A stretch of 64,000 bases of DNA. Source: Cymodocea nodosa. Lineage: Eukaryota; Streptophyta; Magnoliopsida; Alismatales; Cymodoceaceae. Shown one piece after another: positions 39,162-63,528 of this stretch (position 1 is the first letter of the stretch; every line of letters starts with the position of its first letter). The stretch covers positions 9,936,001 to 10,000,000 of the forward strand of contig CM072337.1 of the NCBI GenBank assembly GCA_036874045.1, read 5' to 3'. Under the pieces are notes generated by a model, which made no database searches, was not told the origin of the DNA, and saw nothing but the letters and a program-made list of their open reading frames with translations. A program made the position numbers and the translations under genes.

Positions 39162-40099
39162 TTGTTGTGATTCAATTTGAAGCTTTATTTTCAGTAAATA
39201 GTTGTTGACGAATGAAGTTGAATTAGTTGCTTCTTCTTCCAGTTCCCCAACGAATTTTCTTTTCTTTCAAAAGTGCTAGTAACTCGTAAATAATATTCTG
39301 TTTATATTTATAATGCACGTCCTTAAGGCAAATGAATCTCGTTGCAAGAACGTGTCTTGTAACGTGCAGTATGGTTCTTATTTTTATGGATACATGTCCT
39401 ACTTCTAATTTCAAATTTCAGTAACTGCTAAACCTACAAAGTTTCGTTCGTGGCTGATAGAATAACCGTTCAGCTTAATCCACGAACTAACCTTGTTAAG
39501 TTAACTGTAACTCAACGGACTAGCTTCGATTATTGTTTCTAACTCCATAGACTAACTTCATTGAGTTACAGTTAACTCAACGGAGTGACCTTATATTTTA
39601 TTATTGACCTCGTGGAGTTAAGGTTAACTCAACGGACTTATTTCGTTGAGTTAACACTTAGCAAATTTTCTAAAACTTACTCCTCGTATTAACTTCTATA
39701 TATTTTTCTCTCCTACATTTTGTCAACTTAAATAAAGTTAAATACATGTCATTAATGTAGTGTTCAAATTTAAACTTATGCATATTTAACTTGTAGTTCA
39801 TTTTCTATTGTGCAGAAATTACATTTTACTTTTCAGCATGTAGATATTTTCAACATTAACTAATTATTGTGCATTTAACCATGTCATTCAGAAAATTTGT
39901 AAATCTTTTAAACAATCTTGCACATTGTTTAAATAGTTATATAATATTCAAGATAGTTCATCAATTATATCATTCATTCTCAAACACAAATGTAAAAATA
40001 TCTCAAAAACATTCCTTCATTAATATGAATAATTTACATTTACATTCAATAAGATATTTTTCAATACAAATATAAGTATAAGTAGACGAACAAAACAAT
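39162..40099 (-). other. Region between the accessory ORF and F-box ORF, minus copy
   Basis: Noncoding. It is collinear with 53921-54841 of the plus copy and contains hairpins of the CGTTGAGTTA/TAACTCAACG type around 39500-39660. The splice-flanked capsid block of the plus copy is absent: sequence passes directly from GCTTCAAATT to GAATCACAACAA just before the F-box ATG (39161-39185). Confidence 0.75.
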
Positions 40100-42360
40100 T
40101 TAATCTTTCTTCCTAAGTTCATCTACTTCCTTTTGGAGTTTTTCCAATTGTTGCTCTAATTGATTTATCCTTTCTACAGCTTCAATAATGCTTCTAGAAG
40201 GTTCAAATATATTAGTAGCTGTAGCATTGTAGTTTCTATATTCTTTTACTGAAATGACTCTTAATTTTATCATTTTAGATGTCCATTTTGTGAAGTCAAT
40301 ACAGTCCACCATCAATATAGGTCTCAAATCTCCATAAAATAATTTCTTCTTTGCATATTTTATCTTAGATAGGAAGACTATAGACCAATTAATTTGGATT
40401 TTATTCACAACTGCATGTGTGACCCACTTGACAAATTGACTTAGTTCAATATCATGGCCTTGCCATTGGTAAACATTTTTAATCAAAATGTTAGCTACCA
40501 TGTGTGCTTTACCATTTAAGTGTTTCAGTCTATTTAATAATGGGACACTAGGATTGATAGCTAAATTGTCCTTGATTTCCTGTTCTGTCCACTCAATAGT
40601 AGTTGTACTTTCCAAAATTTCTTTCCATTCATTTTTCAATCCTAAAATGTTATGGAGAAGCTTTGGTGTTATTTGTACATCAGCTTGCTCCACGTTGAAA
40701 ATTAATTATCATTCATCTTCTCTTAAATTTGCATAGAAGTAGGGCACTGGATTCTCATATACTACATGCCCTCTCTATTGAGAAATAAATTGCAGTAGAC
40801 CTTGGAACTCAAATAGATTCTTAATTTCTTGCATACCGTCCCAGTTTACTAGCCTATTGTAAATAATATTATAACCCCTAATCTCTTGATATTTATTATA
40901 TGCTTCCTAACTCTAAAAGTGTACTTCATTTAAAACTGTTGCTTCAGTCGAGTTAGGGATTTGAATTTGTTGCTCTAGAGTGGTTTGTTCTTAAATTTCC
41001 TCTACCATGTGCTGAACTTGATTTAGTTGGAAATGATCCGAAGATTCCAGCCTGTTTGCTTCTACTTCTATTTGTGGTGGAGAGTCGGCAGAATTCTCCA
41101 CTCTTCTTTCTTGCATCCTCTCTAAAATTTGTTGAAGAGTCTCTCCCTCTTCAATGGAATCTGTCAAGATATTTCCTTCCTATTCCATCTACTCTTATTC
41201 AGCTTCTTGTTCAGTTTCTATTCTCTCTTCTTCCTCTTGACTATCAATCTGCATTGTCACTATTCTTTTTGATTTTGTGGCAGATTGGGATGGTGTCACG
41301 GGTAAATCAGCTTCTACCCTAATTTCAGTATCTTTTGTTTGCACAGGCTGCAAATTAGTTTCAACCTGTTTTTCTTCTTTTCTTTGCTCTTGCTGCTGCT
41401 ACTCCTGCTCATCCTTAGAATCGGATAGTAGGTTTACAAAAATTGTCTCTACAGGTCCTACTAATATTACTAGGTCAGGTTTAATCTCTTCTTGATGTTT
41501 AGGCACTATCTCTTTTCCTTTCCTTCTTCTAATTAACTGTGTCTAATCTTCCTCTTCTTCTTTTGAGATGAAATCTACAAAAATAGGCTCTACAGGCCCT
41601 CGAGTCATAGGTATTGGCTCTTCCTATTTTACCTTTTCTATAATTACTAATCTTGAAGGACTAGCTTCCATTTCTTTTATAGCACTTGATCTAGTTGCTT
41701 CCTGATGTTACTCTACTTTAATTTTGTATTGGGCCCTCAATTTTTCTTCAGCCCTTTTTCTGTAGAGTGCATCATATAGTAAATACATTTTTTCCATAGC
41801 CATATCCTTAGAATTTCTTTAGCTCTTAGCAACTTTAACCAGCTTTGCAAATTCTTTCCATTCCTTTGGCGTAGATGGCCCAAAAAATGCTACTCTTTCT
41901 AACGGCCTTAGCGGTGGAATAGATGGTCCTGGCTACTATTCCTCAAAGACAAGTCTTTCAGCAGTCGGTTCCTCTTGTTCTTTAGTTGCATGTTTTTCAT
42001 TTCCTTTCCTCTGTTGTTCCCAGATTGCCCACCGAGCACATCTACCAATGCATCTTTTGAGCCATAGTCGGGACTTATGTTAAATCAATTCTAGGGCAGC
42101 TTCATTATTCGGCTTGATTTTTCTCTCTCTATTTAATGCAACTTTTGTAGCTACTTTGATTCTTGTTTCTATAATCTGTGGTATTTTTATGCCTAAATCT
42201 ACTAAAACTTTCCTCCAGTAGAAAAGGTTAGATTCTACCTTTTGTAGTTCTTTTTCCCGTGTTGTATTTCTGATCTTTTGCCTCGTATGTCATTCTTCCG
42301 ATTCTTTGAGAAATTCTGTCATGTCAACTGCTTCCTCCTAGAACTCTGACGTCATCTTTG
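40100..42360 (-). pseudogene. Accessory ORF, plant transposon-protein-like (minus copy)
   Basis: Starts near 42360 and ends in LEKLQKEVDELRKKD. The N-terminal two thirds are acidic, low complexity (E, Q, P, V) and interrupted by several TAG/TAA stops. The best part (40100-40693) reads ITPKLLHNILGLKNE, AHMVANILIKNV, KIQINWSIVFLSKIK, YGDLRPILMVDCIDF and ends in a coiled coil. With the FYANL seen in the plus copy, the pattern resembles the 'putative plant transposon protein' domain found in Athila-type elements (from memory). About 500 bases of its N-terminal part have no counterpart in the plus copy. Confidence 0.6.
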
Positions 42361-43100
42361 TCATCGTGGAGTAATGGAACGGAACAGAATTGCTCTTATC
42401 TCTATTGTTCTAAGTTCTAAATGAGTCTACGAATAATGCTCCACACATCCTAAGTTTTAGTATAAATAAGCCCTAAGTTTTAGGCAGGTAATCGGGTCAT
42501 TTTCCTGCGCAAACTCTCGCTCTCTCATTTACCTCTCCATGAAGTTGCAGTTAACTCCACGAACTAAGTCCATGGACTTAACTACAGTACTCCATTGAGT
42601 TATAGTTAACTCAATGGTGTAAATTCATTAACAGATCCTAGAGTCAATGGAGTAAGTTCGTTGAGTTAAATGTAACTCAACGGACTTTTCGTAAAGTTAT
42701 AACTAATAAAAATACTTATAATAATCATTTTTACTTCGATCAAGATCGAAGAATTTTTGGTCTAACTGACTCTTAATTTTTTCAACATTTTAACATTTTG
42801 GTCAAATCGTTATATTCCTTGGTTGAACCAAAATTAATTACTCTCTTTTTTCTTCTATCGGTTGAATCGATACCATGCTTCGATAAAACCAACATTTTTA
42901 CTTAATATATTATTTAGATTTTTTTATGTTTTTATGTTTCGATTAGACCGATGGATCCTATCGGTTGAACCATAACGATATTTTTCTTTTATATGTTTCG
43001 ATAAAATCGATAATTCCTTTCAGTTGAACCATGACTATGTTTAAATAAGGTTATTATTATTATTTATAAATAACACACACTTAGATAATTTCATACTAAG
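42361..43100 (-). other. Pol-accessory ORF spacer, minus copy
   Basis: Noncoding, with inverted repeats such as CCATTGAGTTA/TAACTCAATGG near 42590-42620 and CGTTGAGTTA/TAACTCAACGG near 42657-42685. Further on are repeated GGTTGAAC and CGATAAAACC words between 42740 and 43030. Confidence 0.6.
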
Positions 43101-46100
43101 TAAAACTCGAGTAGCCCTCTACTCTTACTTCTTCTATAATTCCAAATGAACTTTTTGGTATTTTCAAAATAGGTCTAAGTCTTTGTCCATTTACTTTAAA
43201 TATATTCTGATTTTTAGGATTTTCAATTTCAATAGCTCCATAGGAATAAATATTTCAAATTATGTAAGGTCCTGCCCAGCTAGATCTTAATTTTCCTGGA
43301 TGGTTATGGAGTCTAGTCATGTAAAGATATACTTCTTGTCCTATTTCAAAGGTTTTTAAAATAATTTTCTTGTCATGCCAAAACTTCATTTCTCTTTTTC
43401 TCTTACAGTTTTCGAATAAGCTTCATTCTTAAATTCTTCTAATTTAATCAATTGTATTTTTCTATTTTCTATAGCTTGATTTAAATTAGTGTTCAAAGTT
43501 TTTAATGCCCAATAAGCTTTATATTCAATTTCAGCTGGTAAATGACAACTTTTTCTATATACTAGCCTAAAAGGTGACATACCTAAGTTTGTCTTATAAG
43601 CAGTTCTATAAGCCCAAAGTGCATCTATTAATCTATTAGCCCAATTTGTTCTAATAGGATCTACTACTTTTTCTAAGATTAACTTAATTTGTTTGTTTGC
43701 ACTTTCTACTTGTCCACTTGTTTGCGGATGATATGATGTTGCAATTTTGTGATTTACTCCATATTTCTTCATTAAGGCTTCAAAACTTCTATTACAAAAA
43801 TGAGTTCTTCTATCACTGATAATAGCTTTAGGTATTCCAAATCTGGCAATTATATTAGTTCTTATAAATTGTATTACTACTTTGTTGTCATTAATTTTTG
43901 TAGGAATAGTTTCTATTCATTTAGATACATAATCCACCCCCAACAATATATAATTAAATTGATTAGACATAGGAAATAGACCCATAAAATCTATTCCCCA
44001 CACATCAAAGATTTCAACTTCAACAATAGGATTAAGAGGCATCATATTCCTCTTTGATATTCTTCCTATTTGTTGATATCTTAAACAACTTAAACAATAT
44101 TTGTGAGCATCTTTGAATAGTGTTGGCCAATAAAGTCCACATTGTAAAATTTTGGTAGTAGTTTTCCCTGAACCAAAATACCCTCCACATGTTTGGTCAT
44201 GGCAGAAAGACAATATGCTCCGATATTTAGTTTTTGGAACACACCTCCTTAAAACCAGATCAGGATATTTCTTAAATAAGTATGAGTCTTCCCAATAGTA
44301 ATATTTTACTCTTGAAAAGTACAATTTCTTATCCTGTCTATTCCAATCCTTAGGTGTTAAACTAGTAACTAAGTAATTAACTATATCTGCATACCAAGGC
44401 ATTGTGTTCATGGTCATTAATTGTTCATTAGGAAAATTATCCTTAATTTCAATATTTGATTTTTCTATTTGTAATATTGATAAATGATCTGCTACTACAT
44501 TCTCACAATCTTTTTTATCTTTAATTTTTAGATCAAATTCTTGTAATAATAATATCAATCGGATCAATCTAAGTTTAGTCTCTTTCTTTGCTATTAGGTG
44601 TTTTAAAGCTGAATGATTTGTGTATACTATCACTTTAGCTCCAATCAGATATGATCTAAACTTTTCTAAGGCAAACACAACAACTAACAGCTCTTTTTCA
44701 GTAGTTGTATAATTAACTTGAGCATCATTTAAAGTTTTGCTTACACAATGAATCACTCTAAGAGATTTTTATATCTTCTGTCCCAACACTGCTCTTACAG
44801 CAAAATCAGATGCATCGCACATTAATTCAAATAGATGGCTCCAATCAGGTGCTTGTATAATAGGAGTTGAAATTAAGATAGTTTTAAGCTTGAAAAATGC
44901 TTCTTTGCAATTTTTATCAAAGTTGAATGGGACATCTTTTAATAGATTAGTTAAAGGCCTAGTTATTTTGCTAAAATCTTTAATGAATCTTCTATAAAAT
45001 CCAGCATGTCCTAGAAATAATCTAATATCTTTTACTGATTTAGGTTCTGGTAGATTAGAAATTACTTCTATTTTAGCTTTATCTACTTCCAACCCTTTCT
45101 TTGAAACAATATATCCCAAGACTATTCCTTGCTTAACCATGAAGTGACATTTTTCCCAATTTAAAACCATACTTTTTTCCACACAGTGTTTTAATACTTT
45201 GTCTAAATTGTTTAAACATACTTCATATGAAGTTCCATATACAGTAAAATCATACATAAATATTTCTAAAAAATCTTTACTCATTCTAGTGAATATGCCT
45301 TGGATACACCTTTGAAAGGTAGCTGGTGCATTGCATAATTTGAATGACATTCTCTTAAAAGCATAAGTTCCATTAGGACAGGTGAAAGTTGTTTTCTCTT
45401 GATCCTCTAGTGCTATTGAAACTTGGTTATATCCTGAATACCTGTCTAGGAAACAAAAATATTCTTGCCTTGCTAATTTCTCTAGCATTTGATCTATGAA
45501 ATGTAAGGGAAAATGATCTTTCCTAGTCACAACATTCAGCTTTCTATAGTCTATACACACTCTCCAACCTGATTGAATTCTAGTAGGTATCAAGTCCTGA
45601 CTTTCATTCCTAATAACTGTTAATCCTGATTTCTTGGGAACTACATGGATTAGACTAACCCATGAGCTATCAAAAATCGGATAAATTATATCATTATCTA
45701 ACCATTTCACTATTTCTTTCCTGACTACTTCTTTAAGGTTTGGATTTAATCTACTCTCAGGAATTCTAACTGGTTTAGCATTCTTTTCTAAATATATGTG
45801 GTGATAGCATAAAGTTGAACTTAACCCTTTTATATTAGTCATAGTCCATCCTATTGCCTCTTTATAAGTTTTTACTACATCTTTTAATTTAGCAATTTGA
45901 TTCTCTTTTAAATCTGAAGCAATAATGATTGGACATGTTTGTTTTTCTTCCAAAAATATATAGGTTAATTCAGGAGGTAAAGGTTTTAAATCTAAATATT
46001 ATCCATCAGAAGCTAGAGTTCCTAATCGAACATTTTCATTTTCTTTGTAAATCTCTTCTTGATGTCCTTTTACATTTATGCTTTCACTTTCTTCTAAAGT

Positions 46101-46184
46101 TTCAGAATCTAGTTGCCTATTTAATTCTTCTTGAATCACATCATCTAGCATATCTCCTTTATCCTTTAAAAAATCTATAGTATG
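43101..46184 (-). pseudogene. Athila-like pol (RT, RNase H, integrase), minus copy
   Basis: A single reading frame with a few nonsense changes. RT (44769-45953) has WRVCIDYRKLN, CFLDRYSGYNQ and ATFQRC, but the active-site block reads IFMYDFTVYG, the first Asp of the DD pair being tyrosine, so this RT would be dead. RNase H and the integrase zinc region follow (43917-44756: [16 protein letters not shown] with the catalytic Asp changed to Asn, [22 protein letters not shown]). Then comes a stop (TGG to TGA), then the core end (SYHPQTSGQVESANKQ). The 5' end is missing: at 46184 the sequence changes to LTR of the plus copy. Confidence 0.9.
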
Positions 46185-46185
46185 T

Positions 46186-46888
46186 ATTAAAACAAAAATA
46201 CTAAAAACAATTTATCTATGTTTGTATGTTGTATTTGAGTGTTGTATTGTTTGTGTTGTATCGTGATTAATGTTATCTTTGTCAGTGTTGTGATTGTTTT
46301 ATGTTTATTTTAGTTTTATAGTTTACTGAAATTGGTTCGTTCAAAAGACTTAAAGATTTTAATGGTTACTGTTTGAATTATCTGAATGTTAGTATTGCTT
46401 AATGATAAATTCAATATTAACTAACATTAAAGAGCTTAATTGATGTTATTTACAATCTGTGGAATCGCCCAATGGTTGTCCGAATTCCTCTGTAAATAGC
46501 AGTATTAAAAAGAAAAGATAGGCTCGTGGAGTTAACTTAAGTCCACGAGGTTAGTCCGTTGAGTTATCCATAACTCAACGAACTTAGTCCGTTGAGTTAG
46601 CTGTAATTCAACGAAGAGCTTATTGAATATATAAATTTGATTTTTAACAATCAAACAGTTCTCAAGTTCGTCAGCAATTCCCTATGGGATCGACCTGTAC
46701 TTGAACATTGACACAATAGACACTGTGCACTTGCAGTTAAAGTACAAATTGGAATTAATATCTAAATTGTATTAAAGGTTGTTTGTTTACTTCTAAAAGA
46801 AAGAATAGGCATAAAGATAAATTAACTAAGTAAAAACAGAAGTAACAAATACAAGTTTTTCTAGTGTAGTGCTGGGAAAACCTAAACA
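46186..46888 (+). mobile_element. 5' LTR of the plus copy, last 0.7 kb only
   Basis: Equivalent to the final ~700 bases of 1229-3405, ending CCTAAACA. The first ~1.47 kb are absent; the left edge abuts the minus copy's pol with only a base or two of overlap. It includes the perfect hairpin CGTTGAGTTA (46557-46566)/TAACTCAACG (46571-46580). Confidence 0.85.
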
Positions 46889-46895
46889 AGTTTTA

Positions 46896-46913
46896 TGGCG
46901 CCGTTGTCGGGGA
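46896..46913 (+). promoter_or_regulatory. Primer-binding site, tRNA-Asp type
   Basis: TGGCGCCGTTGTCGGGGA lies 7 bases after the LTR end. It matches the complement of the 3' end of plant tRNA-Asp with one change, the primer known for Athila-type elements (from memory). Confidence 0.8.
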
Positions 46914-46997: not shown

Positions 46998-47861
46998 ATG
47001 GCATATGCTTATGCTCAAAGATTTCTGAAACCTGTAATTAGCATATGTGAATTCTGCAATTCTGAAGGACACGACATTTCTGATTGTTTGAAACTGAGAC
47101 ATTTACAGATGGTTAGATCCCATGAACAACAAATGAATTATCCTCAATATAATAGAGCCGAGTATGAGAATCCTATAGTTTACCCAACTAATGGTTAGTA
47201 TAGAATGTGTAATATGATGAGAGACACTGAAGTTTGGGATAGCTATGACAGACTACAGCATAGTATAGAGCAAAATCTAGACAAACTGGAATACTTTATG
47301 TGTCAACAACAAGAAGTCAACCAATTAAACTATAAGGAAGCATATTTAGAACCTAAATAGGATATAATTTACAAAATTGAAAAAAATATAAAGAAAATTG
47401 ATCAAAAATTGAATGCAATGAAATTAGATGATCTAGAAACAAAATTAAAAGCATTAGACGAAAATGCAATGAAAATACAAGTTATGCAACAGGACAATGA
47501 AAATTATAATGTTATAAACCTACATAATTTGCAAAATATACAGCAAATAGAAAATACTAATGCAAGAGAATTTAAAGAATGCACTTTAAAACTAAAAACA
47601 ATTGAAGATCATAATCACAAAAATGATATACAAAAACATCATAAAAGTTACGAAAATCTAGAAGATGTATGTGTAACATTAAGATCTGGAACTGATATAC
47701 CACCAAGAACTCAAAATGAAAATGATATGAAGGTGGATAAGAGTAAAAATCAAAATGATAATGAAAATGTAATAGCTGAAAATCTAGAAATCACTGAAGA
47801 ACAATCTGAATCTGCGAATGAAGCTAAAACTGATCAAACAAATCAATTGAAAGAAAAATAG
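46998..47861 (+). pseudogene. 5' ORF of the plus copy: zinc knuckle and coiled-coil region
   Basis: The ATG at 46998, 84 bases after the primer site, starts MAYAYAQRFLKPVIS and reaches CEFCNSEGHDISDC within 30 residues, an intact CCHC nucleic-acid-binding knuckle. The frame continues through charged coiled-coil sequence to VCVTLRSGTDIPP, the TRSG-like block before protease in Athila polyproteins. Stops at 47196 (TAG where another copy has CAG), ~47358 and 47859 break it. The Retrotrans_gag capsid domain that normally precedes the knuckle is absent. Confidence 0.8.
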
Positions 47862-48572
47862 TCTTTGAAATCAAAATCTTTAGCACCCTATCCTGAAAGA
47901 TTACAACAAACAATTCCTGAAAAATAAGAAAAAATCAGAGAAATTTTTGAAAAAGTAATAGTTAACATTCCATTGTTAGATCTATTGTAGAAAATGCCAC
48001 CTTGTGCTAAATTTCTAAAAGATTGGTGTACTAAGAAAAGAGAGCGAAAAGTTCTTAGAAAGGTCTTTTTAGCTGAGCAAAGTAGTTCCCTATTTCTGTC
48101 ACAAATTCCTAAAAAGTTATCTGATCCTGGAATCCCTGTTATATCATGCACCATAGGAAATACCATTCTAGAAAGAACCTTAATAGACTTAAGTGCAGGT
48201 ATAAATGTTATGCCAAGTGATATATTTGCATCCTTAGGATTAGAAGGCTTAATTCCTACTAGTACGGTTATTTAATTAGCTGATAGAAGAATAAGATACC
48301 TTAGAGGAAAAATAGAGGATGTCTTAATTAAAATCAAAAATTTTATATATCCTATTGATATTGTAATTTTGGATTCCCAACAAATTAAGTATAAAAATAG
48401 TGATACATCTTTAATTTTGGGAAAGCCATTTTTAGCAACATCAGGGGCTGTTATAAATTGTAAAATTGGAGTAATGAAGTTAGCATATGATAATGAGGAT
48501 ACTCAATTAAATATTTTCAAACCAGAAAGGCTTGAGGAGTTAGAAATGTCCTTACATACCATAGACTTTTAA
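47862..48572 (+). pseudogene. Protease region of the plus copy
   Basis: Aspartic protease of the Gag-Pol polyprotein. Before it comes PCAKFLKDWCTKKRE, the conserved pre-protease block. The active site reads LIDLSAGINVMP (usual form DLGASINLMP), then a stop, ADRRIRYLRGKIEDVLIKI and LILGKPFLATSGAVINCK. It shares one frame with the 5' ORF and RT, with stops at 47924-47926, ~47990 and 48273-48275. Confidence 0.85.
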
Positions 48573-49827: not shown

Positions 49828-50340
49828 AAGGAAGCATTTTTCAGACTTAAGACTAGCTTAATTTCAACTCCTATAATTCAAGCACCTGATTGGAACCATC
49901 CATTTGAGTTAATGTGCGATGCTTGTGATTTTGCTGTGGGAGTAGTGTTAGGACAGAAGATAGAAAAATCTCCTAGAGTGATTCATTATGCAAGCAAAAC
50001 CTTAAATGATGCTCAAGTTAATTACACAACTACTGAAAAAGAATTATTAGTTATTGTGTTTGCTTTAGAAAAGTTTAAATCATATCTGATTGGAGCTAAA
50101 GTAATAGTATACACGGATCATTCAGCTCTAAAATATCTAATAAAGAAAAAAGAAACTAAACCTAGATTGATCCGATGGATATTATTATTGCAAGAATTTG
50201 ATCTAGAAATTAAAGATAAAAAAGGTTGTGAGAATGTAGTAGTAGATCATTTATCAAGATTACAAATAGAAAAATCAAATATTGAAATTAAAGATAATTT
50301 TCCTGATAAACAATTAATGACCATCAACACAATGCCTTGA
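49828..50340 (+). pseudogene. RNase H of the plus copy
   Basis: Degrades the RNA of RNA-DNA hybrids during reverse transcription. [26 protein letters not shown] and [10 protein letters not shown] supply the four acidic residues. It is in the frame of the distal RT. A TGA precedes it at 49825 and another stop ends it at 50338. Confidence 0.88.
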
Positions 50341-51640
50341 TATATAGACATAGTTAATTACTTAGTTACTGGTTTAACACCTAAGGATTGGAATAGACAG
50401 GATAAGAAATTGTTTTTCTCAAGAGTAAAATATTACTATTGGGAAGACCCATACTTATTTAAGAAATGTCCTGATATGGTTTTAAGGAGGTGTGTTCCAG
50501 ATACTGAATATTCAAGCATATTGTCTTTCTGTCATAACCAAGCTTGTGGAGGGCATTTTGGTTCAGGGAAAACTGCTGCAAAAATTTTACAATGTGAGTT
50601 TTATTGGCCAACACTATTCAAAGATGCTCATAAATATTGCTTAAGTTATTTAAGATGTCAACAAATAGGAAGAACATCAAAGAGGAATATGATGCCTCTT
50701 AATCCTATTATTGAGGTTGAAATCTTTGATGTGTGGGGAATAGATTTTATGGGTCCATTTCCTATGTCTAATCAATTTAATTACATATTGTTGGGGGTGG
50801 ATTATGTATCAAAATGGATAAAAGCTATTCCTACAAAAACTAATGACAACAAAGTGGTAATTCAATTTATAAGAACAAATATATTTGCCAGATTTGGAAT
50901 ACCTAAAGCTATTATCAGTGATAGAGGAACTCATTTCTGTAATAGAAGTTTTGAAGCCTTAATGAAGAAATATGGAGTAAACCACAAAATTGCAACATCA
51001 TATCATCTACAAACAAGTGGACAAGTAGAAAGTGCAAACAAACAAATTAAATTAATCTTGGAAAAAGTAGTAAATCCTACTAGAACAGATTGGGCTAATA
51101 GATTTGATAGATGCACTTTGGGCTTATAGAACTGCTTATAAAACGAGTTTAGGTATGTCACCTTTTAGGCTAGTATATGGAAAAAGTTATCATTTACTTG
51201 TTGAAATAGAACATGAAGCTTATTGGGCATTAAAAACTCTGAACACTAATTTAAATCAAGCTGCTGAAAATAGAAAAATGCAATTAATTGAATTAGAAGA
51301 ATTTAGAAATGAAGCTTATTCGAAGGCTGTAAGAGAAAAAGAAAAAATTAAATTTTGGCATGATAGAAAAATTATTTCAAAAAGCTTTGAAATAGGACAA
51401 GAAGTATATCTTTATATGGCTAGACTCCATAACCATCCAGGAAAATTGAAATCTAGATGGGTAGGACCTTACATAGTTCGAAATGTTTATCCCTATGGAG
51501 CTATTGAAATTGAAAATCCTAAAAATTAGAATATATTTAAAGTAAATGGACAAAGACTTAAACCTATTCTGAAAGCACCAAAAAGCTCCTTTGGAGTTAT
51601 AGAAGAAGTCAGAGTAGAAGACTACTCGAGCTTTATTTAG
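50341..51640 (+). pseudogene. Integrase of the plus copy
   Basis: The zinc region (CHNQACGGHFGSGKTAAKIL, CLSYLRCQQIG) has H, H, C and C. The core has [19 protein letters not shown] and SGQVESANKQ, so the D,D,E set is complete. After a frameshift near 51100 the distal part (51104-51529) ends with HPGKLKSRWVGPYIV, the usual GPF/Y-like end. A TAG at 51527 (CAG in the minus copy) precedes a short tail to ~51640. Confidence 0.9.
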
Positions 51641-52234: not shown

Positions 52235-53920
52235 ATGAGGAAGATGACGCCTAAATTCTGAGAAGATTTGGTAGTGGCCAAAGCACACCTAGTGTTTGAT
52301 GCACTTTACAAAAAGAGGGTTGTAGAAAAGTTGAAAGCCCAATATAAAATCAAATTGGAACAACATCACAAAGCTACTACTAGAACTGCTGCCAAACCTA
52401 CTACAAAAGGAGATGAAGCTGGTCCTTCAAGACCAGTAATTATAGGAAAAGTTAAACAAGAAGAGCTAGTACTTGTGGCTCGAAGGCCTGCAGAGTCTAT
52501 TTTTGTAGATTTAATTTCAGAAGATGAAGAGGAAGAACAGGCACAACTAATCAGAAAAAAGAAAGGAAAAGAAAAAGTGCCTGAATATGAGGAAATTAAA
52601 TTTGAAGTACCAATTTTTACAGGGCCTGTGGAGCAGATTTTTATTAACCTGCTATCCGATTCTGAGGAGGAGCAAAGAAAAGAAGAAAATCAGGCTGAAA
52701 TTAGTCTACAGCCTGTACAAGAAGAAACAGAAATTAGGGTAGAAATTGAATTGCCTGTGACTCCATCCCAATCTGTTACAGAATCAGAAAGAATAGTAAC
52801 AGAATAGATTGGTAGTTAGGAGGAAAAAGAAAGAGTAGAAAATGAAGAGGTTGAAAGAAGCCATTTGGACAAAAATAATTTCACAGATTCCATTGAAGAA
52901 CAAGAAACTCTTCAGCAATTTATGGAAAGAATTCAAGACAGAGTGGAGAGTTCTGCCGGCTCACCACCACAAACAGAAACAGAAATTCAGGAATCTGTAG
53001 AAAATATTCAAATGCAGCTTATAGAAGAGGAAGAGCAAGAGCAAACCCCTCTAGAGCAACAAAGTCACCTTCCTGACCTGACTGAAATAACAATTTTGAA
53101 TGAAGTACATTTTTGTAGTCAAGAAGCTTATACCAAATATCAAGAAATAAGGGGTTACGACATTATTTACAGTAGACCAGTAAATTGGGATGGAATGCAA
53201 GAAATCAAAGAATTATTTGAATTCCAAGGTCTACTGCAATTTATATCTCAAGAAAGAGGGCATGCAGTATATGAGAATTTAGTGCTTTGTTTCTATGCAA
53301 ATTTGAGAGAAAGAGGAGGACTAATTTCAAACGTGGAGGAAGCTGATGTACAGATAACACCAGAGCTTCACCACAACATTTTTGGTTTAAAGAATGAAGG
53401 AACAAAAATTTTGGAAGATACAACTGCAGTTGAATGGACCGAACAGCAAATTAAGGATTGTTTAGCTATCAATCCTAGTGTACCATTATTAAACAGATTG
53501 AAGCATTTAAATGGTAAAGCACACATGGTAGCTAACATTCTGATTAAGAATGTTTATAAACAACAGGGCCATGACATAGAATTAAGTCAATTTATCAAAT
53601 GGGCCACATATGCAGTTGTAAATAAGATCCAAATAAATTGGTCTGTAGCTTTTATCTCCAAGCTGAAAACAGTGAAGAAGAAATTATTTTATGGAGATTT
53701 GATTCCACTACTGATGGTAGACTGTATTGATTTCACTAAATGGACATCAAAAAGGATCAGATCAAGAACCATTTCAGTGAAAGAATACAGAAATTTTGTA
53801 GCTGCAGAACTAGCTGTACCTTCTAGAGGAATTATAGGAGCAGTAGAGAGGATTAATCAATTAGAGCTTCAATTAGAAAAACTCCAGAAGGAAGTAGATG
53901 AACTTAGGCATAGAGATTAA
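52235..53920 (+). pseudogene. Accessory ORF, plant transposon-protein-like (plus copy)
   Basis: One frame from the ATG at 52235 with stops at 52259, 52805 and ~52817. The N-terminal ~190 residues are acidic and P/E/V-rich. The second part (52865-53920, 351 residues open) has ENLVLCFYANLRERGG, VQITPELHHNIFGLKNE, HLNGKAHMVANILIKNV, KIQINWSVAFISKLK, MVDCIDFTKW and a C-terminal coiled coil (INQLELQLEKLQKEVDELRH). FYANL followed by ITPE is the pattern I associate with the plant transposon-protein domain found in Athila-type elements; its role is unknown. Confidence 0.65.
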
Positions 53921-54841
53921 ATTGTATTGTTCGTCTACTTGTGTAAAATTGTATAAAATTGTATGATGTACTTTTAATGTAATTGATTCATATTAATGAA
54001 TGTAAATTTTTCAGATGCAATTTTCATACATGTTTTGGATGTGAAATGAATGAAATTTATTGAATATTATGTAATTTGTGAAACTTTATGAATGAATATG
54101 TAACAAATTTACAATTTGCTGAATGACAGGATAACTGCTTAAAAATTTCTGCATGTTATAAGGTAAAATGTAAATTCTGCATAACTTAAAATGACCTGCA
54201 AGTTAAATCTTTATATAATGCTCAGATTTAAACGTATTTTAATTAGAATGATGTATTAATGACATAGATTTAACTTTATTATAGTTAGTAGAATGAAAAA
54301 AAAAAAAAAAAGAACAGAGAGAAACTTATGAGAGTAAAACTTAGATGTTGCTAAGTGTTAACTCAACGAAGTAAGTTCGTTGAGTTAACCGTAACTCCAC
54401 GTGGTTAGTAATATAATATAAAGTCACTCTGTTCAGTTATCTTTAACTCAACGAAGTTAGTCCGTGGAGTTAGCAACAGTAACCGACTATATTCTGTTGA
54501 GTTTTCTGTAACTCAACGAGGTTAGTTCGTGGATTAAGCAGAACGGTTATTCTTTTAACCATGAACGAAACTTCGTCGATTTAGTGGTTACCAAAATTTA
54601 AAATTAGTAGTGGTACACGTATCCATATAAACAGGAACCACGATGCATGTTGCAAGCCACGTTCTTGCAATGAGATTTATTCACTTTATGGATGCGCAGT
54701 ATATATATAAAACAGAATGTTATTTACAAGTTACCAGCACTTTTGAAAGAAAGGAGAATGCTTTTGAGGAACTGGAAGGAGAAGCAGCTGATTCAACTTC
54801 ATCCGACAACAAATATTTATAGAATGGAAAGCTTCAAACTA
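53921..54841 (+). other. Region between accessory ORF and first splice donor
   Basis: Noncoding, collinear with 39185-40100 of the minus copy. It contains a poly-A stretch (54294-54312), GTTGAGTTA/TAACTC hairpins (54355-54540) and a block with CACGTTCTTGCAATGAGAT. It ends GCTTCAAACTA at a GTATGT donor. Similarity to the minus copy stops exactly there. Confidence 0.65.
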
Positions 54842-54942
54842 GTATGTAATTAATCTTCTCCTATTTATTTATGAGCACATGGACTCATTCTCTAAGCACT
54901 AAATGATTAGTAAGAACACCTACCTAGGAATTTTCATTGCAG
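54842..54942 (+). other. Putative intron 1 before the capsid exon
   Basis: Begins GTATGT (54842-54847) and ends TTTTCATTGCAG (54931-54942), 101 bp, T-rich before the AG. Its left edge coincides, within one base, with the point where similarity to the minus copy stops. Splicing is inferred. Confidence 0.5.
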
Positions 54943-57900
54943 AGGAGTACTGAAAAAGTTTTTGAACTGAACTTTAACGAAATTCTTTGGGGTGTAGCTA
55001 ACCTTTCTTTAAAAGAGAATTTAGAGATGGCTGCTCCAATAGAAAAACCATTAGGAGAGATTCTGTATCCTGAATTAATTGATGAACCTTCATGTATTCG
55101 ATTGCTAAATGTTTGGGTTTTCCCAACACTACACTAGAAAAACTTGGATTTGTTATTTCTGTTTTTACTTAGTTAATTTATCTTTATGCCTATTCTTTCT
55201 TTTAGAAGTAAACAAACAACCTTTAATACAATTTAGATATTAATTCCAATTTGTACTTTAACTACAAGTGCACAATGTCTATTGTATCAGTGTGCAAGTA
55301 CAAGTCAATCCCACAGGGAATTGTTGACGAACTTGAGAATTGTTTGCTTGTTAAAAATCAAATTTATATATTCAATAAGCTCTCTGTTGAATTACAGTTA
55401 ACTCAATGGACTAAGTTCGTTAAGTTATGGATAACTCAACAGACTAACCTCGTGGACTTAAGTTAACTCCACGAGCCTGTCTTTTCTTTTTAATACTACT
55501 ATTTACAAAGGAATTCAGACAACCATTGGGCGATTCCACAGATTGTAAATAACATCAATTAAGCTCTTTAATGTTAGTTAACATTGGATTTATCATTGAG
55601 CAATACTAACATTCAGATAATTCAAATAGTAACCATTAAAATCTTTAAGTCTTTTGAACGAACCAATTTCAGTAAACTGTAAAACTAAAATAAACATAAA
55701 ACAATCACAACACTTACAAAGGTAACATTAATCACGATACAACACAAACAATACAACACTCAAATACAACATACAAACATAGATAAATGGTTTTTGGTAT
55801 TTTTGTTTTAATATGAACATGGAAATGGGCGAAAGGTGAAATGTAAAGTAATCTCACTTAACAGTAAATACTTCCGACACTACTTGCAACACGATTACAC
55901 CACTGAAAATTAAACCACTTACAATCCTGTCTCCTCTCCTTATAGAATCGTGAGTCCAGAATTGCAAGATGATCTCCTCTTCAGCATACAGGCATCAACC
56001 CGAAGCCAAGGCTAAAAGCTTTACGATCTCCTGAAATATGAGTTGGCGCTTGATGAAAATGGCTTCCCTTCCCGCGACGTGATCACTCCTCATAGTGGTT
56101 GTCAAGTATTGTGTTTGGCTTGGAATCGAGCCGACATTAGGTAAGTATCTTCACAGACCTCCGATGGTTGGTGATTATGGTGTGGTGATGGTGATGATGA
56201 TGGTTGGTGTGGTACTTCAGAGAATTGCGTCACCGATCCTCCTCTACACACACTGTCCGCCCATCGATCACACACACCTTCTTTTTTTCTTCTTTTCTTT
56301 TATATTTCTTCAATAGTAACTGCTTCTACTTGAATGGTCGGTTGGATTTCCTTCATTCATATCAACGGCGATGCTTTCTTCTCCCTGCACGATTGAATTC
56401 CTACGTGATATGTGCAAACGTGATTTTTCTCTTCCAACTGTCTGTTCCTACAACCGCTACAGTGGCATATTAGAAAATATATAGTCCGTGGAGTTACAAA
56501 TAACTCGACGGACTTTCTTCATTGATTTAACTATAAAACATGTGCATAAATTTAAATATCCGATGCTTAGGTGCATTTCGAATACTTATAAACTTAACTA
56601 TCCGATGCTCAGGTGCATTTCGGATAGTTATAAATAACTCACCGATATATAACTTAAGTAAATCTACCAGATCTCAACACGTGTCTACTGCAGTTTAATC
56701 ATAAAATAACATTTCGAAGAGTTACAGGTTTAACTATTCGATGCTCAGATGCATTTCGGATAGTTACAGCTAACTCACCGAAAATCCACTTAAGTCACTT
56801 TCCTAGAACATGACACGTGTCCTCAGCTATTTTTATAAATAAAAAGAGATTTCGGAGAGTTACAGGGATAACTATCCGATGCCTAGTTGCAATTTCGGAT
56901 AGTTATAGATAACTCACCGAAAGTTCACTTAAGTCATTCATTATGGTTTCGACACGTGCAATTCAAGAAATAATAAAATATTCTCTTAAAACATAACTAT
57001 TCGGTAATTTAAACATAACTATCCGATACATGTTCGGTCTGTTAAACAAAACTGTCCGAATATGTGTGGTATGTTAAACATAACTGTTTGAAATATCAGA
57101 AAATTTGGATACTTAAGAATTTCACAGCCTGCAACTTACCGACAGTTCATAAATGTACTAAATTAACATTAATTCTCCCAAATTAAGCAAATTCTTCAAT
57201 TAAAGCATATAACAATGCAATTATAACATAATGGTTTAATTCTTATATTATAAGCTAAATATAATGCAATTAACCATCATTTAAACGTTAATAATATGCA
57301 CTTTTTCATTCTAAACACCAAACTTTGAGGGAGATAGGTTTGAACTGAAATCTAATTATATTAGTCAATTACCACATTTTCATGGATTAGAAAGAGAGGA
57401 TGCCTATTATTTCCTTAGAAAATTTAATGAAGTTTGTCAAATGATGAAAATGCCAAACATGAGTATAGATGCTATTAAACATAGATATATCCCTTTTTCT
57501 TTAAAAGACACAGCTAAGAGATGATTATATACTCTGTCGCCTGATTCAATTTCTACATGGACTGAATTTTGCTCTATTTTTCTGGAAAATTATTATCCAA
57601 CACATCAAACGATTAAAAAGAAGAAAGAAATATTAATGTGTAGCCAAAAACAGGGTGAATCATTCTGGAAATATTTTGAAAGATTTAAAGATTTACTGAC
57701 TCAATGTCAACATCATGGAATGAGTAGAGCACAACTAATAGGTATAATTTATGAAGGCATAGATGTTTCAACGAAATCTTTATTAGAATCTACTTGTCAA
57801 AATGGAGTTTTAAAATTATGTAGTGAAGAAGCATGGGCATATTTAGAGAATTTTGCAAAAAGAACTACATAGTGGGAAAATTCGGTTGAAGTTATTGCAG

Positions 57901-58452
57901 ATAAAAGAATATTGCCAAGAGGAATGCAAGAAATAGATTCCAATACTATGCTTGAGGTGAAATTAAATGAATTAACAAAGAAAATACAAGAGTTATCATT
58001 AAATCAAAAGCTAGCAGAAAAGAATGCAAACATAAATGACTTAGATATTATTTATGCTAGAAACCAGAGAGATAACTTGGGAAATTCTTATCATCCTAAT
58101 TGGAGAAATCACCTGAATTTATCTTGGAGAAACAACAATTTCCAGGGAGGAGAAAATATAAATGAGAAGAACATAAGTTATGAAGTATTAATTGAACAAG
58201 GAGCTAGAATAGAGAAATTAGAAAAGATAATCCAACAAGTAAACAATCGTCTAGAATTTATATTTGGAAATGTTGCAATTCAAAATCAGAATAGAAATAT
58301 ATCACTTAGACAGAAGGAACCAATGGAAGTTAGACCTACTAGAGGATTGCCAATACAAGCTATACCTAATCCTGTCAATAGAATGGTTAATAAAATTGAT
58401 ACCTCTTCTGGGAGGGCAGCTGAATGAAGCAGCATATCTGAAGCAACTATCT
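54943..58452 (+). pseudogene. Relocated capsid gag exon (interrupted by solo LTR)
   Basis: Encodes the capsid part of Athila-type Gag. After an ATG at 55027 (MAAPIEKPLGEILYPELIDE) comes an LTR insertion (55110-57317). Then comes the Retrotrans_gag domain: LPHFHGLEREDAYYFLRKF, IPFSLKDTAKR, FCSIFLENYYPTHQTIKK, FWKYFERFKDLLTQCQHHGM. Next is LPRGMQEIDSNTMLEVKLNE, then HPNWRNHLNLSWRNN, which normally follows the zinc knuckle, and coiled coil to a TGA at 58425. Frame is kept across the LTR once one target copy is discounted. Stops occur near 57524 and 57870. There is no zinc knuckle; that lies at the 5' end of the element. Gag 3' of pol is not the Athila order I know. Confidence 0.8.
55110..57317 (-). 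mobile_element. Solo Athila-like LTR (2208 bp) in the capsid exon
   Basis: Runs TGTTTGGG to CTAAACA in minus orientation, with no internal sequence. CTAAA (55105-55109) on the left and CCAAA (57318-57322) on the right are a 5-bp target duplication with one change. It is a product of LTR-LTR recombination after insertion. Confidence 0.88.
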
Positions 58453-58578
58453 GTATGTATATATGTTTTTTTTATTTTTTTTATAGTATCATAGAGTTAA
58501 TTTTTAACTCAATGAACTTAGTCTGTGCAGTATCATGATAATTCTTGTCTCTACTAAATTTTTGTTTGTGTTTTACAG
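58453..58578 (+). other. Putative intron 2 after the capsid exon
   Basis: Begins GTATGT (58453-58458), the same hexamer as intron 1, and ends TTGTGTTTTACAG (58566-58578), 126 bp with T-rich runs. Similarity to the minus copy resumes at GAATC, immediately at the acceptor, 10 bases before the F-box ATG. Splicing is inferred. Confidence 0.5.
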
Positions 58579-58587
58579 AATCGACAA

Positions 58588-59705
58588 ATGGAATTGATGC
58601 AATTACCGTTAGATGCACTAAGGGAAGTACTAAGTAACTTGTCAGCTAAAGATCTGTGCAGGTTGTGTTGTGTATCAAAGACTATATTGAAGAAAAATAT
58701 TTTTAGAGACTACAAGCTGCAAAAATGACTAAGATTAGAGATGGATTCATATGGAGGTCATTTAATCGTAGTTCAAATACCCATGAATATCTGGCTATGG
58801 AAGAAACTACTGGAATTCCACCCAATGCATTAGAAGGAATAAATCATATTATGGGGATAGATGAAGGATTAATCATATACAAGACGAGACCAAGGTATGC
58901 AAGTTTATTATTACCTGATAGTTTGATAAGAAATCCTATAACAGGAGAAGAATGGAATATAGGAAGACCTAATAAATTTGAAGCACTAATTGTAAATTGT
59001 GGGTCAGCTTTAATATTTTCTGATAAAAATTCTGCAATTCCTGAAAAATTATATTATTAGAGACCTACAGGAAATTGGGATGAAGATTTATGCTTAAGTG
59101 TGTATAATTTTCTGAATAGATCTTGGAATGAAAATATTATGATATATCTAGGACAGAAATCATTAATTAACCAAACACATGTCATACTTGATGGATATAT
59201 ATATCTAGTCACGGAGATATCATTAGCATATGGATCTGATTTATACATTGTGAGCATAGACAGTTATGATGAATATATAGAAATTTTACCTATACCAAGT
59301 GAAATAGCTAAACTACCATCTGCAAAATTTAATGAAATTCAAATAGGAATGTGGTATAATGAAAAAGATGATCCTACTTTATGTCTGATAAGATGGTGGG
59401 ATGAACTGATGAAATTTCAAATATGGATTATGGAAGACATGAATGAATTGAAGTGGGAAGAGGAGTATATTGAAATAGATGTAGAAATAGAAACTGCTAC
59501 ATTACCTTGGAACCAAAAAGGATCCATTTCTGCATTACATATCATTAATGGTAATACACTCGTATTTGGAATTTATAATATATTACATGTTTACAAATTA
59601 AGAAGGAACAAGAACTGCATTAAAACAGAATTAATAGTAAGAAGAACTATACCTAAAAAGTTTGCTTGGACTGATACATTTATAGTTTTCATTTTTATTT
59701 TATAA
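58588..59705 (+). pseudogene. F-box-like ORF carried by the plus Athila-like copy
   Basis: The ATG at 58588 gives MELMQLPLDALREVLSNLSA, then KDLCRLCCVSK, an F-box-like start. A small deletion (~9-10 bases relative to the minus copy) near 58680 shifts the frame. The rest reads on at 58725-59060 (MGIDEGLIIYKTRPRYA, LIRNPITGEEWNIGRP) and, after a TAG at 59058, in the same frame at 59100-59705 (HVILDGYIYLVTEISLAYG, LYIVSID, FQIWIMEDMNE). This resembles F-box-associated beta-propeller repeats. The TAG after LYY is shared with the minus copy. A role in an SCF complex is only inferred. Confidence 0.65.
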
Positions 59706-61381
59706 AAGAGAAAAAAACAAAATATGAATTGAGTTTGTTCTAGGAAACCAACTGGCTTGCTCGTGAGCCACCAAAGGCATAGGAGCTTGGGTTCCACACA
59801 AGACACTGATTTATTAATATCTGTTAAATGTTATTTTGTTTTATATTTTGCTTTTATCTATGAATGAAAAGTTTTTCAGAATCAAAAATCGAAATATGCA
59901 GAAGGAGATACAAATGAAACAAGGTTTGTAACTAATTATTCATCCTCAATTTTAAATCAAGCAAAACTGTATTCATGCCTGCTACAATTGCTGTACTTAT
60001 TGTGAAATCTTTTTACATTGAGGACAATGCAAAATGTTGGTTTGGGGGGGGAGGTAATTAAAGTAACAACCATGTAAGTTTGTTAATTAAAGAAATTAAA
60101 ATGGTACTGCAAAGTTGTGGAAATTGAAAATTTTTATGAACTTGCTGTAACTATCCGATAAATGAGATTGTAAAATTTTTATAAACTACTTGATTGTTAT
60201 ATTTAGAAGGCTATATAAGATGCTATTGAATTTACTATTTATGCAAATCTAGATATAGTATCTTATGTTTTTTTGAATTTCATGAGTTTAATAGTTTCAT
60301 GATTTTAAAATGAAATCAGAATGCTTAATGAAAAAAATCAGTAAATTATCTGAAGTCCTGAATGAGCTGAGATGTGAATTCTAGATTAAATGAAACACAT
60401 ATGATTAAAGATACATTTAATTTGATTGATTGAACTTGTAGAATGATTTATGTGTAGATCTTATTAAACTACAGAAAAAGTATGAGCTTATTGTTATGGA
60501 TTCATATTTTCAGTAACTGATAGAAGCAGGACTATATGAGATTGGCGTTTTACTGCATCTGTATTAATGAAATACATACATATATAGTATGTGATTAATG
60601 TTTTGTTTTGTGTTTGTAGTTTTCATTGGAAAAAAAAAAGAAAGAAAAAAGGGAAAATTTGAGAGTTATTGTCTTGTTTGATCACAAGCCTTTTGTACTT
60701 GAGTAGATAGGTATGTAAGGATTGTTGACCTGAAAAAGGACTCTTGAAATTTGGCATCCTAAGATCCTGATCATATTTGAGATTGTTGATTGAAAGCTCG
60801 TTACATGGGTACATTAGAAAGCTCTTGTATGATTCAAGCTTGTCAAATTAACTTTTAAAGTACGAAAAAAAAAAGAAAAAAGAAAAAAGAAAAAAAATAT
60901 ACATATACTGTTCTGAAAAGATACAAGTGTTTTGTGAAATACAGATATCTTATGAATCGAGTATATTTTATGTTATCTAGAATTGCTAAAATATGAATTT
61001 GGAATTGACTTTTGAAGTTGTTTAATGGAGATACAATTCTTTATTCTACTTGTCTTAATCATATTGAATTAGATTGTATTTTGATTCGTATGTTGTTGAA
61101 ATTTCTTCTAGAAATCTTATTGGAAAAATCAGGATGACAGACGATGAAAAGAAGAACAAACGATAATATAATTAACACTTATGTGATGATGATATACTTT
61201 GTATGTAATTTGCATATATTCTAAGTATATTTGCAGGTTGATTACTGAAACATACAGAATATATTTTTAAGCTAAACAGAAGAAAAAAAGAAAGGGGAAG
61301 AATTAGTTCTAGCACTTTTAAAGACCAATTAATTAGATCTTAGTTTGCTAAGGGACTAGCAAAATTTAGGTATGGGGGAAG
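59706..61381 (+). mobile_element. 3' internal region of the plus copy with two polypurine tracts
   Basis: Noncoding. TTGAGGACAATG precedes GGTTTGGGGGGGGAGG (60039-60054), the standard Athila-type polypurine context. A further 1.3 kb follows before the second tract, GGTATGGGGGAAG (61369-61381), at the LTR. The conserved block (60660-60850) and homopolymer-rich stretches lie between. The plus-strand primer for this LTR is the second tract by position. Confidence 0.75.
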
Positions 61382-63341
61382 TATTTAGAATGAAAAAGTG
61401 CATATTATTAACGGTTAAATGATGTTTAATTGCATAATATTTAGCTTATCATACAAGAATTAAGCCATTATGTTATAATTGCACTGTTATATGCTTTAAT
61501 TGAAGAATCTGCTTAATTTTGGGGAATTAATGTTAATTTAGTACATTTATGAACTATCGGTAAGTTGCAGGCTGTGAAATTCTTAAGTATCCAAATTTTC
61601 TGATAATTCGGATAGTTATGTTTAACAGACTGATCATGTCAGATAGTTATGTTTAAATTGCCGAGCAGTTATGTTTTGAAAGTTTCCTGAAGTTAACAAC
61701 TAGTCATTTCGTTGCATTAATTTCTCATTTAGCTAAACGTTAAGTTAACGTGTGTTTTTATTGAAAAGCATGATATGTTTTAAAGTTATATCTTCTGTAT
61801 CATGAACAATGCATATTTTGATAACTCGTTAAGTTAGTGAGTAAAAGAAGAGACGAACTCGTTAAGTTAACATAACTAAACGCATTGAGTTGCTATATTG
61901 AACACTAAGACAACGCGTTAGGTTAGCATTATAAACTTAAGTTGTTATTTTTGCACGTGGTAAAATTCTTATTATAAAAATATTTGTTTATTACTGAATC
62001 AGTGAGTTATCTATAACTATCTGAAGTTGCAGTTGGGCATCAAACAGTTATATGTATAACTCTCCAAAATCTCTTTTTATTTATAAAATAGCTGAGGACA
62101 CGTGTCATGTTTTGGTAAAGTGACTTAAGTGGATTTTCGGTGAGTTAGTTGTAACCATCTGAAATGCATCTAAGCAACAGATAGTTAGACCTGTAACTCT
62201 TCGAAATGTTATTTTATGATGACACGTGTCGAGATCTGGTAGATTTACTTAAGTTATATATCGATGAGTTAGCTGTAACTATTTGAAATGCATTTGAGCA
62301 TCGGATAGTTAAGTTTATAAGTATCTGAAATGCACCTAAGCATCAGATAGTTAAATTTATGCACGTGTTGAATTTAAATGCTTTAGTATATCACGTGAGA
62401 TGCACATGTTTAACTCGTTAAGTTAGCATAACTGTACGCGTTGAGTTACATGAATACACACTAAGGCAACACGTTATGTTAGCAGCTTATTTCTTTATAT
62501 TTTCTAATATGCCATTGTAGCGGTTGTAGGAATAGACAGTTGGAAGAGAAAAAACCACGTTTGCACGTATCGCGCAGGGAAAGAAATCATCGCCGTTGAT
62601 ACGAATGAAGGAAATCCAACCAACCATTCAAGTAGAAGTAGTTACTACTGAAGAAATATAAAAGAAAAGAAGAAAAAAGAAGAAGTGTGTGATCGATGGG
62701 CAGACAGTGTGTGTAGAGGAGGATCGGCGTCGCAATTCTTTGAAGTACCACACCAGCCATCATCATCACCATCACCACACCATAATCACCAACCATCGGA
62801 GGTCTGTGAAGATACTTGCCTGATGTCGGGTCGATTCCGAGCCAAACACAGTGCCTTACAACCATTGTGATGAGTGATCACGTCGCGGGAAGGGAAGCCA
62901 TTTTCACCAAGCGCCGACTCATATTTCAGGAGATTGTAAAGCTTTTAGCCTTGGCTTCGGGTTGATGCCTATATGCTGAAGAGGAGATCATCTTGCAATT
63001 CTAGACTCGCGATTCTATAGGGAGAGGAGACAGAATTGTAAGTGGTTTAATTTTCAGTGGTGTAATCACGTTGCAAGTAGTGTCAGAAGTATTTACTGTC
63101 AAGTGAGATTACTTTACATTTCACCTATCGCCCATTTCCATGTTCATATTAAAACAAAAATACCAAAAATAATTTATCTATGTTTGTATGTTGTATTTGA
63201 GTGTTGTACTGTGATTAATGTTATCTTTGTCAGTGTTGTGATTATTTTATGTTTATTTTAGTTTTACAGTTTACTGAAATTGGTTCGTTCAAAAGACTTA
63301 AAGATTTTAATGGTTACTGTTTGAATTATCTGAATGTTAGT
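61382..63341 (+). mobile_element. 3' LTR of the plus copy, first ~1.96 kb only
   Basis: Starts TATTTAGAATG (the canonical TG mutated to TA) right after the polypurine tract. It breaks off at GAATGTTAGTA, about 0.5 kb short of its end, where the minus copy's 5' ORF begins. It carries CACGTGTC repeats and CGGATAGTTA/TAACTCTCC inverted repeats. Confidence 0.85.
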
Positions 63342-63528
63342 AAACCATAGGATTCTTGTACTTAGCTCTATTATATTGAAGATAATTCATTTGTTGTTCA
63401 TGTGATCTAACCATTTGCAATCGTCTCAGTTTCAAACAATCAGAGATGCCGTGACCTTCTAAATTGCAGAATTCACATATGCTAACTATAGGTTTTAGAA
63501 ATCTTTGAGTGTAATGCCATATTCTCAA
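63342..63528 (-). pseudogene. 5' ORF (zinc knuckle) of the minus copy
   Basis: Reads RFLKPIVSICEFCNLEGHGI, then SDCLKLRRLQMVRSHEQQMN: an intact CCHC knuckle equivalent to 47010-47180. A small deletion near the ATG (63518-63520) changes the frame. It is cut off at 63342 by the plus copy's LTR; the pol belonging to it resumes at 46184. No capsid domain lies between the primer site and the knuckle. Confidence 0.8.

Follow-up and report, generated by a model that had tools for sequence, protein, structure and literature searches.

An Athila-like Ty3/gypsy family of Cymodocea nodosa with a split, permuted gag and a capsid probably carried in an intron of an alternatively spliced F-box gene

Introduction

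Why should a long terminal repeat (LTR) retrotransposon carry its capsid behind integrase, between what look like splice sites, and what do copies without that block tell us about its origin? The question is raised by a stretch of 64,000 nucleotides from Cymodocea nodosa (assembly GCA_036874045.1, contig CM072337.1, positions 9,936,001 to 10,000,000, forward strand; hereafter the window, in whose coordinates all positions are given), which contains copies of a single retroelement group, nested and lying in either orientation. We compared its plus copy and minus copy with each other and with relatives found by searching the window's own genome (374.6 Mb, 28 contigs), the source of all genome-wide counts below. 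The capsid-behind-pol layout is the standard of this family in this genome. We consider it likely that the family is an Athila-like Ty3/gypsy lineage with a split and permuted gag, whose capsid sits in an intron of an F-box gene within an alternatively spliced 3′ unit; the tentative name Athila-like follows from resemblance in gag and primer-binding site (PBS).

Gene order of the family

By Pfam match, the capsid domain of the plus copy (Retrotrans_gag, PF03732, 6.3e-16, at 57525-57869) stands downstream of reverse transcriptase (RT), RNase H and integrase, and the first open reading frame (ORF) behind the PBS opens at a zinc knuckle. This part of the copy reads as follows.

46896..46913, plus strand: PBS TGGCGCCGTTGTCGGGGA, recognised by sequence
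46998..47858, plus strand: 5′ ORF region opening at the zinc knuckle (CEFCNSEGHDISDC), without capsid; stops break the frame in the window copy
47991..48569, plus strand: protease region, placed by its match to the open copy L066
48891..49824, plus strand: RT (PF00078, 7.5e-24)
49828..50337, plus strand: RNase H (PF17917, 2.4e-36)
50341..51526, plus strand: integrase (PF00665, 1.1e-14, and PF17921, 9.1e-11, both in 50341-51126)
52820..53917, plus strand: accessory ORF A2, with a weak PF20167 match (0.0052, below cut-off)

The PBS is one that we take to be of the Athila/Tat tRNA-Asp type. About 85 bases past it, at 46998, the 5′ ORF begins with MAYAYAQRFLKPVISICEFC, the zinc knuckle, and a start MAYAY(A/P) is readable before the knuckle in 26 of 35 loci examined (L039-L073, in which L069-L073 repeat five shorter loci). 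The protease stretch of L066 gives an Asp_protease_2 match of 3.2e-4, below the Pfam cut-off, and matches the protease sequence of the gag-protease protein P0004 at 8.2e-34; P0004 has the usual arrangement, in which a single ORF runs from capsid over the zinc knuckle to protease. RT, RNase H and integrase follow one another in Ty3/gypsy order at 48891-51126, and a polypurine tract precedes the 3′ LTR, as expected of this superfamily; the capsid that Ty3/gypsy elements carry at their 5′ end, ahead of nucleocapsid and protease, is missing from that place.

The same order recurs across the genome. Probing with the capsid turned up 5,221 first-look candidates; 150 of these were scored, and the 30 then fetched include the window copy. 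Upstream of the capsid, 28/30 have the accessory region and intron 1 (described below), and in the two exceptions, L012 and the solo-LTR-bearing window copy (L009), an LTR adjoins the capsid; downstream lies F-box sequence in 23 loci and the region behind the F-box in 4 (L015 has both), and zinc knuckle, protease, RT and integrase are absent from the approximately 1.5 kb downstream of the capsid in all 30. Conversely, a zinc-knuckle probe for the 5′ end was scored at 40 places and 30 were fetched, again including the window copy. LTR, PBS and zinc knuckle adjoin in every one, and none has a capsid match within about 1.5 kb on either side of the knuckle. Four of five reads of 10 kb join the two halves: L069 and L072 run LTR, PBS, zinc knuckle, protease, RT, RNase H, integrase, accessory region, intron 1 and capsid, and L070 and L073 have the same order with pol deletions and reach the F-box. 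Gene order and the abundance of the family are, like the exact joins, the open frames and the purifying selection reported below, read directly from the DNA copies. The sequence-only reading of this window had proposed from far fewer copies that the 5′ ORF opens at the zinc knuckle without capsid, and that the capsid follows integrase and an accessory ORF; both proposals hold, and the survey of relatives makes the permuted layout the rule.

Two fetched loci differ in another way. In L029 (1-1131) and L032 (2317-3345), LTR, PBS and a short leader are joined to the region behind integrase, followed by intron 1 and capsid; they are pol-less derivatives with similar breakpoints that have kept the capsid and F-box unit.

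A split gag

The two parts of gag can each be matched to a gag of ordinary order. The open capsid frame of L017 (385 aa) can be aligned with residues 26-345 of P0004, leaving a gap at the P0004 zinc knuckle, and remains of the region behind the lost knuckle are kept in the capsid ORF (YHPNWRNHPNLSW). The 5′ ORF of L066, open over 627 aa up to the end of the locus, follows P0004 from around the LRSG motif and on through protease; the match of its N-terminal zinc knuckle is weak (E 0.2). Identity between the capsid and gag proteins from other plants is 37-51%, and among solved structures the capsid has no relative at E ≤ 0.1. These alignments support a split gag; the gene order and the block-free copies described below support a permuted gag in which the capsid would be a downstream, skippable exon.

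The 3′ unit and its splice sites

The region behind A2 can be read as three exons and two introns.

54700..54709, plus strand: TATA-like box TATATATATA, candidate internal promoter; TATATAT is conserved
54824..54841, plus strand: end of exon 1, six codons starting with the shared AUG and read as MESFRL in most copies; donor in phase 0
54842..54942, plus strand: intron 1, GTATGT...TTGCAG; donor GT in 33/33, acceptor AG in 28/32
54943..58452, plus strand: exon 2, which carries the capsid; about 1.3 kb once the solo LTR is subtracted
55027..58424, plus strand: capsid reading frame, MAAPIEKPLGEI to ...GRAAE, broken up by the solo LTR and two stops
55110..57317, minus strand: solo LTR, a later antisense insertion, TG...CA, with a 5-bp target-site duplication CTAAA/CCAAA
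58453..58578, plus strand: intron 2, GTATGT...TTTTACAG; acceptor AG in 25/26, donor GT in 21/27 (the donor counted by eye)
58579..59702, plus strand: exon 3, the F-box gene, first ATG at 58588 (PF00646, 1.1e-9); stops break the window copy

The splice-like edges claimed previously, GTATGT...TTGCAG at 54842 to 54942 and GTATGT...TTACAG at 58453 to 58578, are present. Part of the earlier account of the block between them needs amendment: capsid does lie within 54943-58452, but the solo LTR at 55110-57317 had been overlooked, and we rejected the whole interval as capsid. The capsid matches flanking the insertion overlap by 5 bases in uninserted copies, and the true block without it measures about 1.52 kb. 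An orientation of the solo LTR along the element was likewise rejected, the PBS loci showing it to be antisense. The two stops of the window capsid frame are at 57522 and 57870.

In subfamily I, exon 1 ends in ATGGAAAGCTTCAGACTG followed by GTATGT, and its ATG is found in 30/32 copies with a readable capsid junction. Joined by predicted splicing to the capsid, the frame is open in 26/32 copies, and in 25 it is both open and begins with the ATG; with the block skipped, the frame from exon 1 into the F-box gene is open in 24 of 26 readable copies, 22 of them with the ATG. Retention of intron 1 leads to a stop in 32/32 (scored one base out of register), and in the correct frame, GTA TGT AAT TAA, GTATGTAATTAA also ends in a stop. 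The least variable splice sites are those that both products need, namely the intron 1 donor (33/33) and the intron 2 acceptor (25/26; AG in 18/20 in family II). The intron 2 donor is the only site that neither product needs, because the capsid stop precedes it. T content is 52% in intron 2, 36% in intron 1 and 23% in exon 1. Upstream, TATATAT is found in 34/34 aligned rows (two of them the window copy), column identity rising from about 0.90 just upstream to 0.96 at this motif and staying high through exon 1 and intron 1; family II has TATAAATATAGA at this position. That the box serves as an internal promoter is a guess for which this conservation is suggestive.

The F-box gene and selection

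The ORF past the block encodes an F-box protein, an identity that the earlier note missed. The domain scores 40.4 bits in L100 and 38.3 in the window copy, above the Pfam cut-off of 20.5, while FBA_1 reaches 17.3 bits in the window copy, below its cut-off of 21.1, and is not listed for L100. Among 1,498 candidates, no homolog of the F-box protein was found at E ≤ 0.001.

Capsid, F-box and pol frames are under purifying selection. Between plus and minus copies, the ratio of nonsynonymous to synonymous substitution rates (dN/dS) is 0.36 for the F-box gene, 0.27 for RT, 0.34 for RNase H-integrase, 0.21 for A2 and 0.40 for A1. The zinc-knuckle ORF gives 0.38 against the copy at 33402, the F-box gene 0.33 against L100, a family II copy like the minus copy, and the capsid 0.29 against L033 and 0.41 against L024. 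A2 (52820-53917) is the most constrained frame in the comparison of the plus and minus copies. F-box genes are a class used by some plant viruses against host defence; that this one directs ubiquitin ligase activity against a host factor is speculation on our part.

Copies without the capsid block

The minus copy shares pol and the 3′ region with the plus copy and has no counterpart of 54842-58578. Its two edges meet at one point.

39172..39173, minus strand: block-free join of exon 1 (ending at 39173) to exon 3 (starting at 39172)

It had been claimed that this copy lacks exactly the block, with its flanks joined at the splice edges, and this is so: 39173 abuts 39172, with no base gained or lost relative to family II relatives. 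The breakpoint is constant elsewhere as well. A 201-base query spanning the join has at least 40 matches in the genome (one being the window copy), all of which cross the join and 35 of which extend over the full 1-201, and the eight further block-free copies that were read all join at the same edge. By comparison, capsid sequence and intron 2 precede exon 3 in all 20 of the F-box relatives closest to the minus copy that were read.

A tree of 41 exon ends (9 block-free; 112 columns) requires 4 changes of the block-free label (bootstrap range 4-6), at least 2 of them forced by well-supported branches, and suggests that block-free copies are not one clade. The loss is precise and apparently repeated at the splice edges, and the reverse transcription of exon-skipped RNA suggested in the sequence-only reading, taken as a recurrent event, is the explanation that fits these copies best.

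Proposed mechanism and competing explanations

The arrangement would work as follows. The zinc knuckle would have stayed at the 5′ end, fused before protease and pol, and the capsid would have been relocated behind pol, into an intron of an F-box gene. The RNA of this 3′ unit would be alternatively spliced: exon 1 joined to exon 2 would give capsid, ending at a stop before intron 2, and skipping of exon 2 would give the F-box protein, with one AUG (MESFRL-) serving both products in subfamily I. We infer that such splicing takes place in living cells and chooses between capsid and F-box protein. Element-length RNA lacking exon 2 could then be packaged, reverse transcribed and integrated, leaving block-free genomic copies that would rely on capsid from other copies. 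Less certainly, a separate mRNA may begin at the TATA-like box, some 140 bases before intron 1, and so provide capsid in excess of pol. For the fullest version, in which the capsid is a skippable F-box exon, one AUG serves two unrelated proteins, an internal promoter uncouples capsid from pol, and splicing sets the ratio of particle to F-box protein and repeatedly yields capsid-less parasites, we see about an even chance.

Several observations weigh against this account. None of the 5 family II copies read has the exon 1 AUG, and the acceptor of intron 1 varies there, which makes the shared start codon a trait of subfamily I; the sole family II capsid leader read, in L096, has a frameshift. 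A copy with intron 1 alone removed was not seen, though no aimed search for one was completed. In the 10-kb read L071, similarity ends past integrase, and no capsid or accessory sequence appears in the 10 kb. Some ratios are less constrained: for the capsid C-terminus, comparison with six copies of family II gives dN/dS of 0.39-0.81, over only 56-60 codons, and the F-box gene against L033 gives 0.69 over 142 codons. The tree is built on just 112 columns, its bootstrap has not settled, and the label could also have been scattered, and the count of changes inflated, by template switching between RNAs with and without the block.

Such template switching is part of the idea that the block-free copy arose once, by splicing or deletion, and spread non-autonomously, its state being moved to other subfamilies by template switching. 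Eight of the nine block-free copies compared fall in family II, where the tree does not resolve their branching, and non-autonomous derivatives are common, the pol-less L029 and L032 with their similar breakpoints among them. Yet both flanks of the join in L107 are subfamily I-like and this copy falls outside the family II clade, and a single change suffices in 0% of bootstrap trees. Moreover, the breakpoint is at splice edges, so that even one event points to splicing, and we regard a single origin as unlikely. It is highly improbable, in our view, that the block-free form is instead ancestral and that capture or template switching brought the capsid block into an already complete pol-F-box element. 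The retention of YHPNWRNHPNLSW from behind the lost zinc knuckle is what a captured gag piece would show, and the first arrival of the capsid behind pol may well have been such a capture. However, both subfamilies have the block at the same place, its exact bounds at a GTATGT donor and a TTACAG acceptor, with an inner acceptor and donor, are not expected of an insertion, and block-free copies would have been capsid-less from the start, with no donor copy. The alternative offered in the earlier note, capture of a gag segment by template switching, leaves the precise and apparently repeated loss at GT/AG edges unexplained.

Least probable of all is that this capsid is decayed baggage and that working elements use the capsid of ordinary gag-first relatives. 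The window copy is indeed broken by the solo LTR and by stops, and many fetched copies are broken too, but comparison of diverged copies (0.29 and 0.41, above) shows purifying selection on the capsid frame, and in many copies this frame stays open over a long stretch. Nor does a capsid precede the knuckle in any of the 30 zinc-knuckle loci, although gag-first relatives elsewhere in the genome were not searched for.

Comparison with known elements

With Athila-like Ty3/gypsy elements the family shares gag and protease sequences, the order of RT, RNase H and integrase, probably the PBS type, and a long post-pol region with extra ORFs. It differs in that ordinary members such as P0004 have capsid, zinc knuckle and protease in one 5′ ORF, whereas here the knuckle alone leads. 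Capsid-first order is treated as the common plan of LTR retrotransposons (PMC7264820). An abundant family that breaks it, with the thousands of first-look capsid candidates counted above, shows that capsid can come from a separate 3′ unit.

Production of Gag apart from Pol by splicing is described for the Ty1/copia elements BARE (PMC3735527) and EVADE, through shGAG (PMC8892269), and BARE2 is presented as a Gag-less parasite (PMC3735527), a parallel to what the block-free copies would be. In those accounts Gag is at the 5′ end, whereas here it is behind pol, and the splicing is deduced from DNA copies. Introns within an LTR element link our family to Ogre, where one is reported between gag and pol (PMC9289625), to Bagy-2, where splicing serves a gene behind pol (PMC7264820), and to the Athila env class; the post-pol gene is portrayed there as env-like or of unknown nature, unlike the capsid found here. 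Gene 23 of maize Grande is a post-pol gene with its own promoter, though as described it is antisense and unrelated to capsid (PMC7264820). An orchid Ty3/gypsy family with an acquired RNA demethylase ORF shows that a host-type domain can be kept in a giant gypsy family, but that domain is not an F-box and Gag-Pol is given there as a single ORF in the usual order (PMC9289625). A search of the open-access literature found no paper matching the gag-behind-pol arrangement, and of the papers it returned for F-box together with retrotransposon, two in one set of 14 contained the word F-box, twice each, while four others looked unrelated from their titles and the openings of their abstracts.

The arrangement may be wider than this genome. 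Taking 120 of the 146 matches to the L066 ORF, the best is P0023, a 523-aa protein from another source with the knuckle at residue 19, no capsid and the same VCVTLRSG motif as L066, which could represent a second permuted family. In a pattern scan, eleven other proteins among the matches listed start near the knuckle without capsid; nine keep the WR(N/Q)HPNF motif of ordinary gags, the two without it being P0108 and P0116. Neither P0023 nor the L017 capsid has a relative among the viral contigs.

If recurrent reverse transcription is correct, the block-free copies would form a DNA-level record of exon skipping, because the skipped RNAs were copied back into the genome. This would open a direct test of how capsid is balanced against enzyme and of how capsid-less parasites originate, and it places an F-box gene under selection inside a retrotransposon.

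Other features of the window

The plus copy extends from an LTR remnant at 46185 to a 3′ LTR ending at 63342, both LTRs (46185-46888 and 61382-63342) being truncated. Its remaining parts and the minus copy are as follows.

38056..46186, minus strand: minus copy, with pol, accessory region, exon 1 and F-box exon, without the capsid block
46185..46888, plus strand: 5′ LTR remnant of the plus copy, 704 bases; 95% match to the reverse complement of 55110-55813
61369..61381, plus strand: polypurine tract GGTATGGGGGAAG, the sequence adjoining the start of the 3′ LTR
61382..63342, plus strand: truncated 3′ LTR of the plus copy

The plus and minus copies meet head to head at 46185-46186, where only 704 bases of the plus 5′ LTR are left and the minus pol follows directly. 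Rfam and tRNA scans across the window gave no matches. Fragments of the zinc-knuckle region at 33402-34148 and 63340-63631 adjoin LTR sequence belonging to other copies, which points to nested insertion or rearrangement. Finally, inverted motifs like GTTAACTCAACG / CGTTGAGTTAAC are repeated in the LTR, at 54360-54540 before exon 1, in intron 2 (58490-58530) and at 51960-52060 behind integrase.

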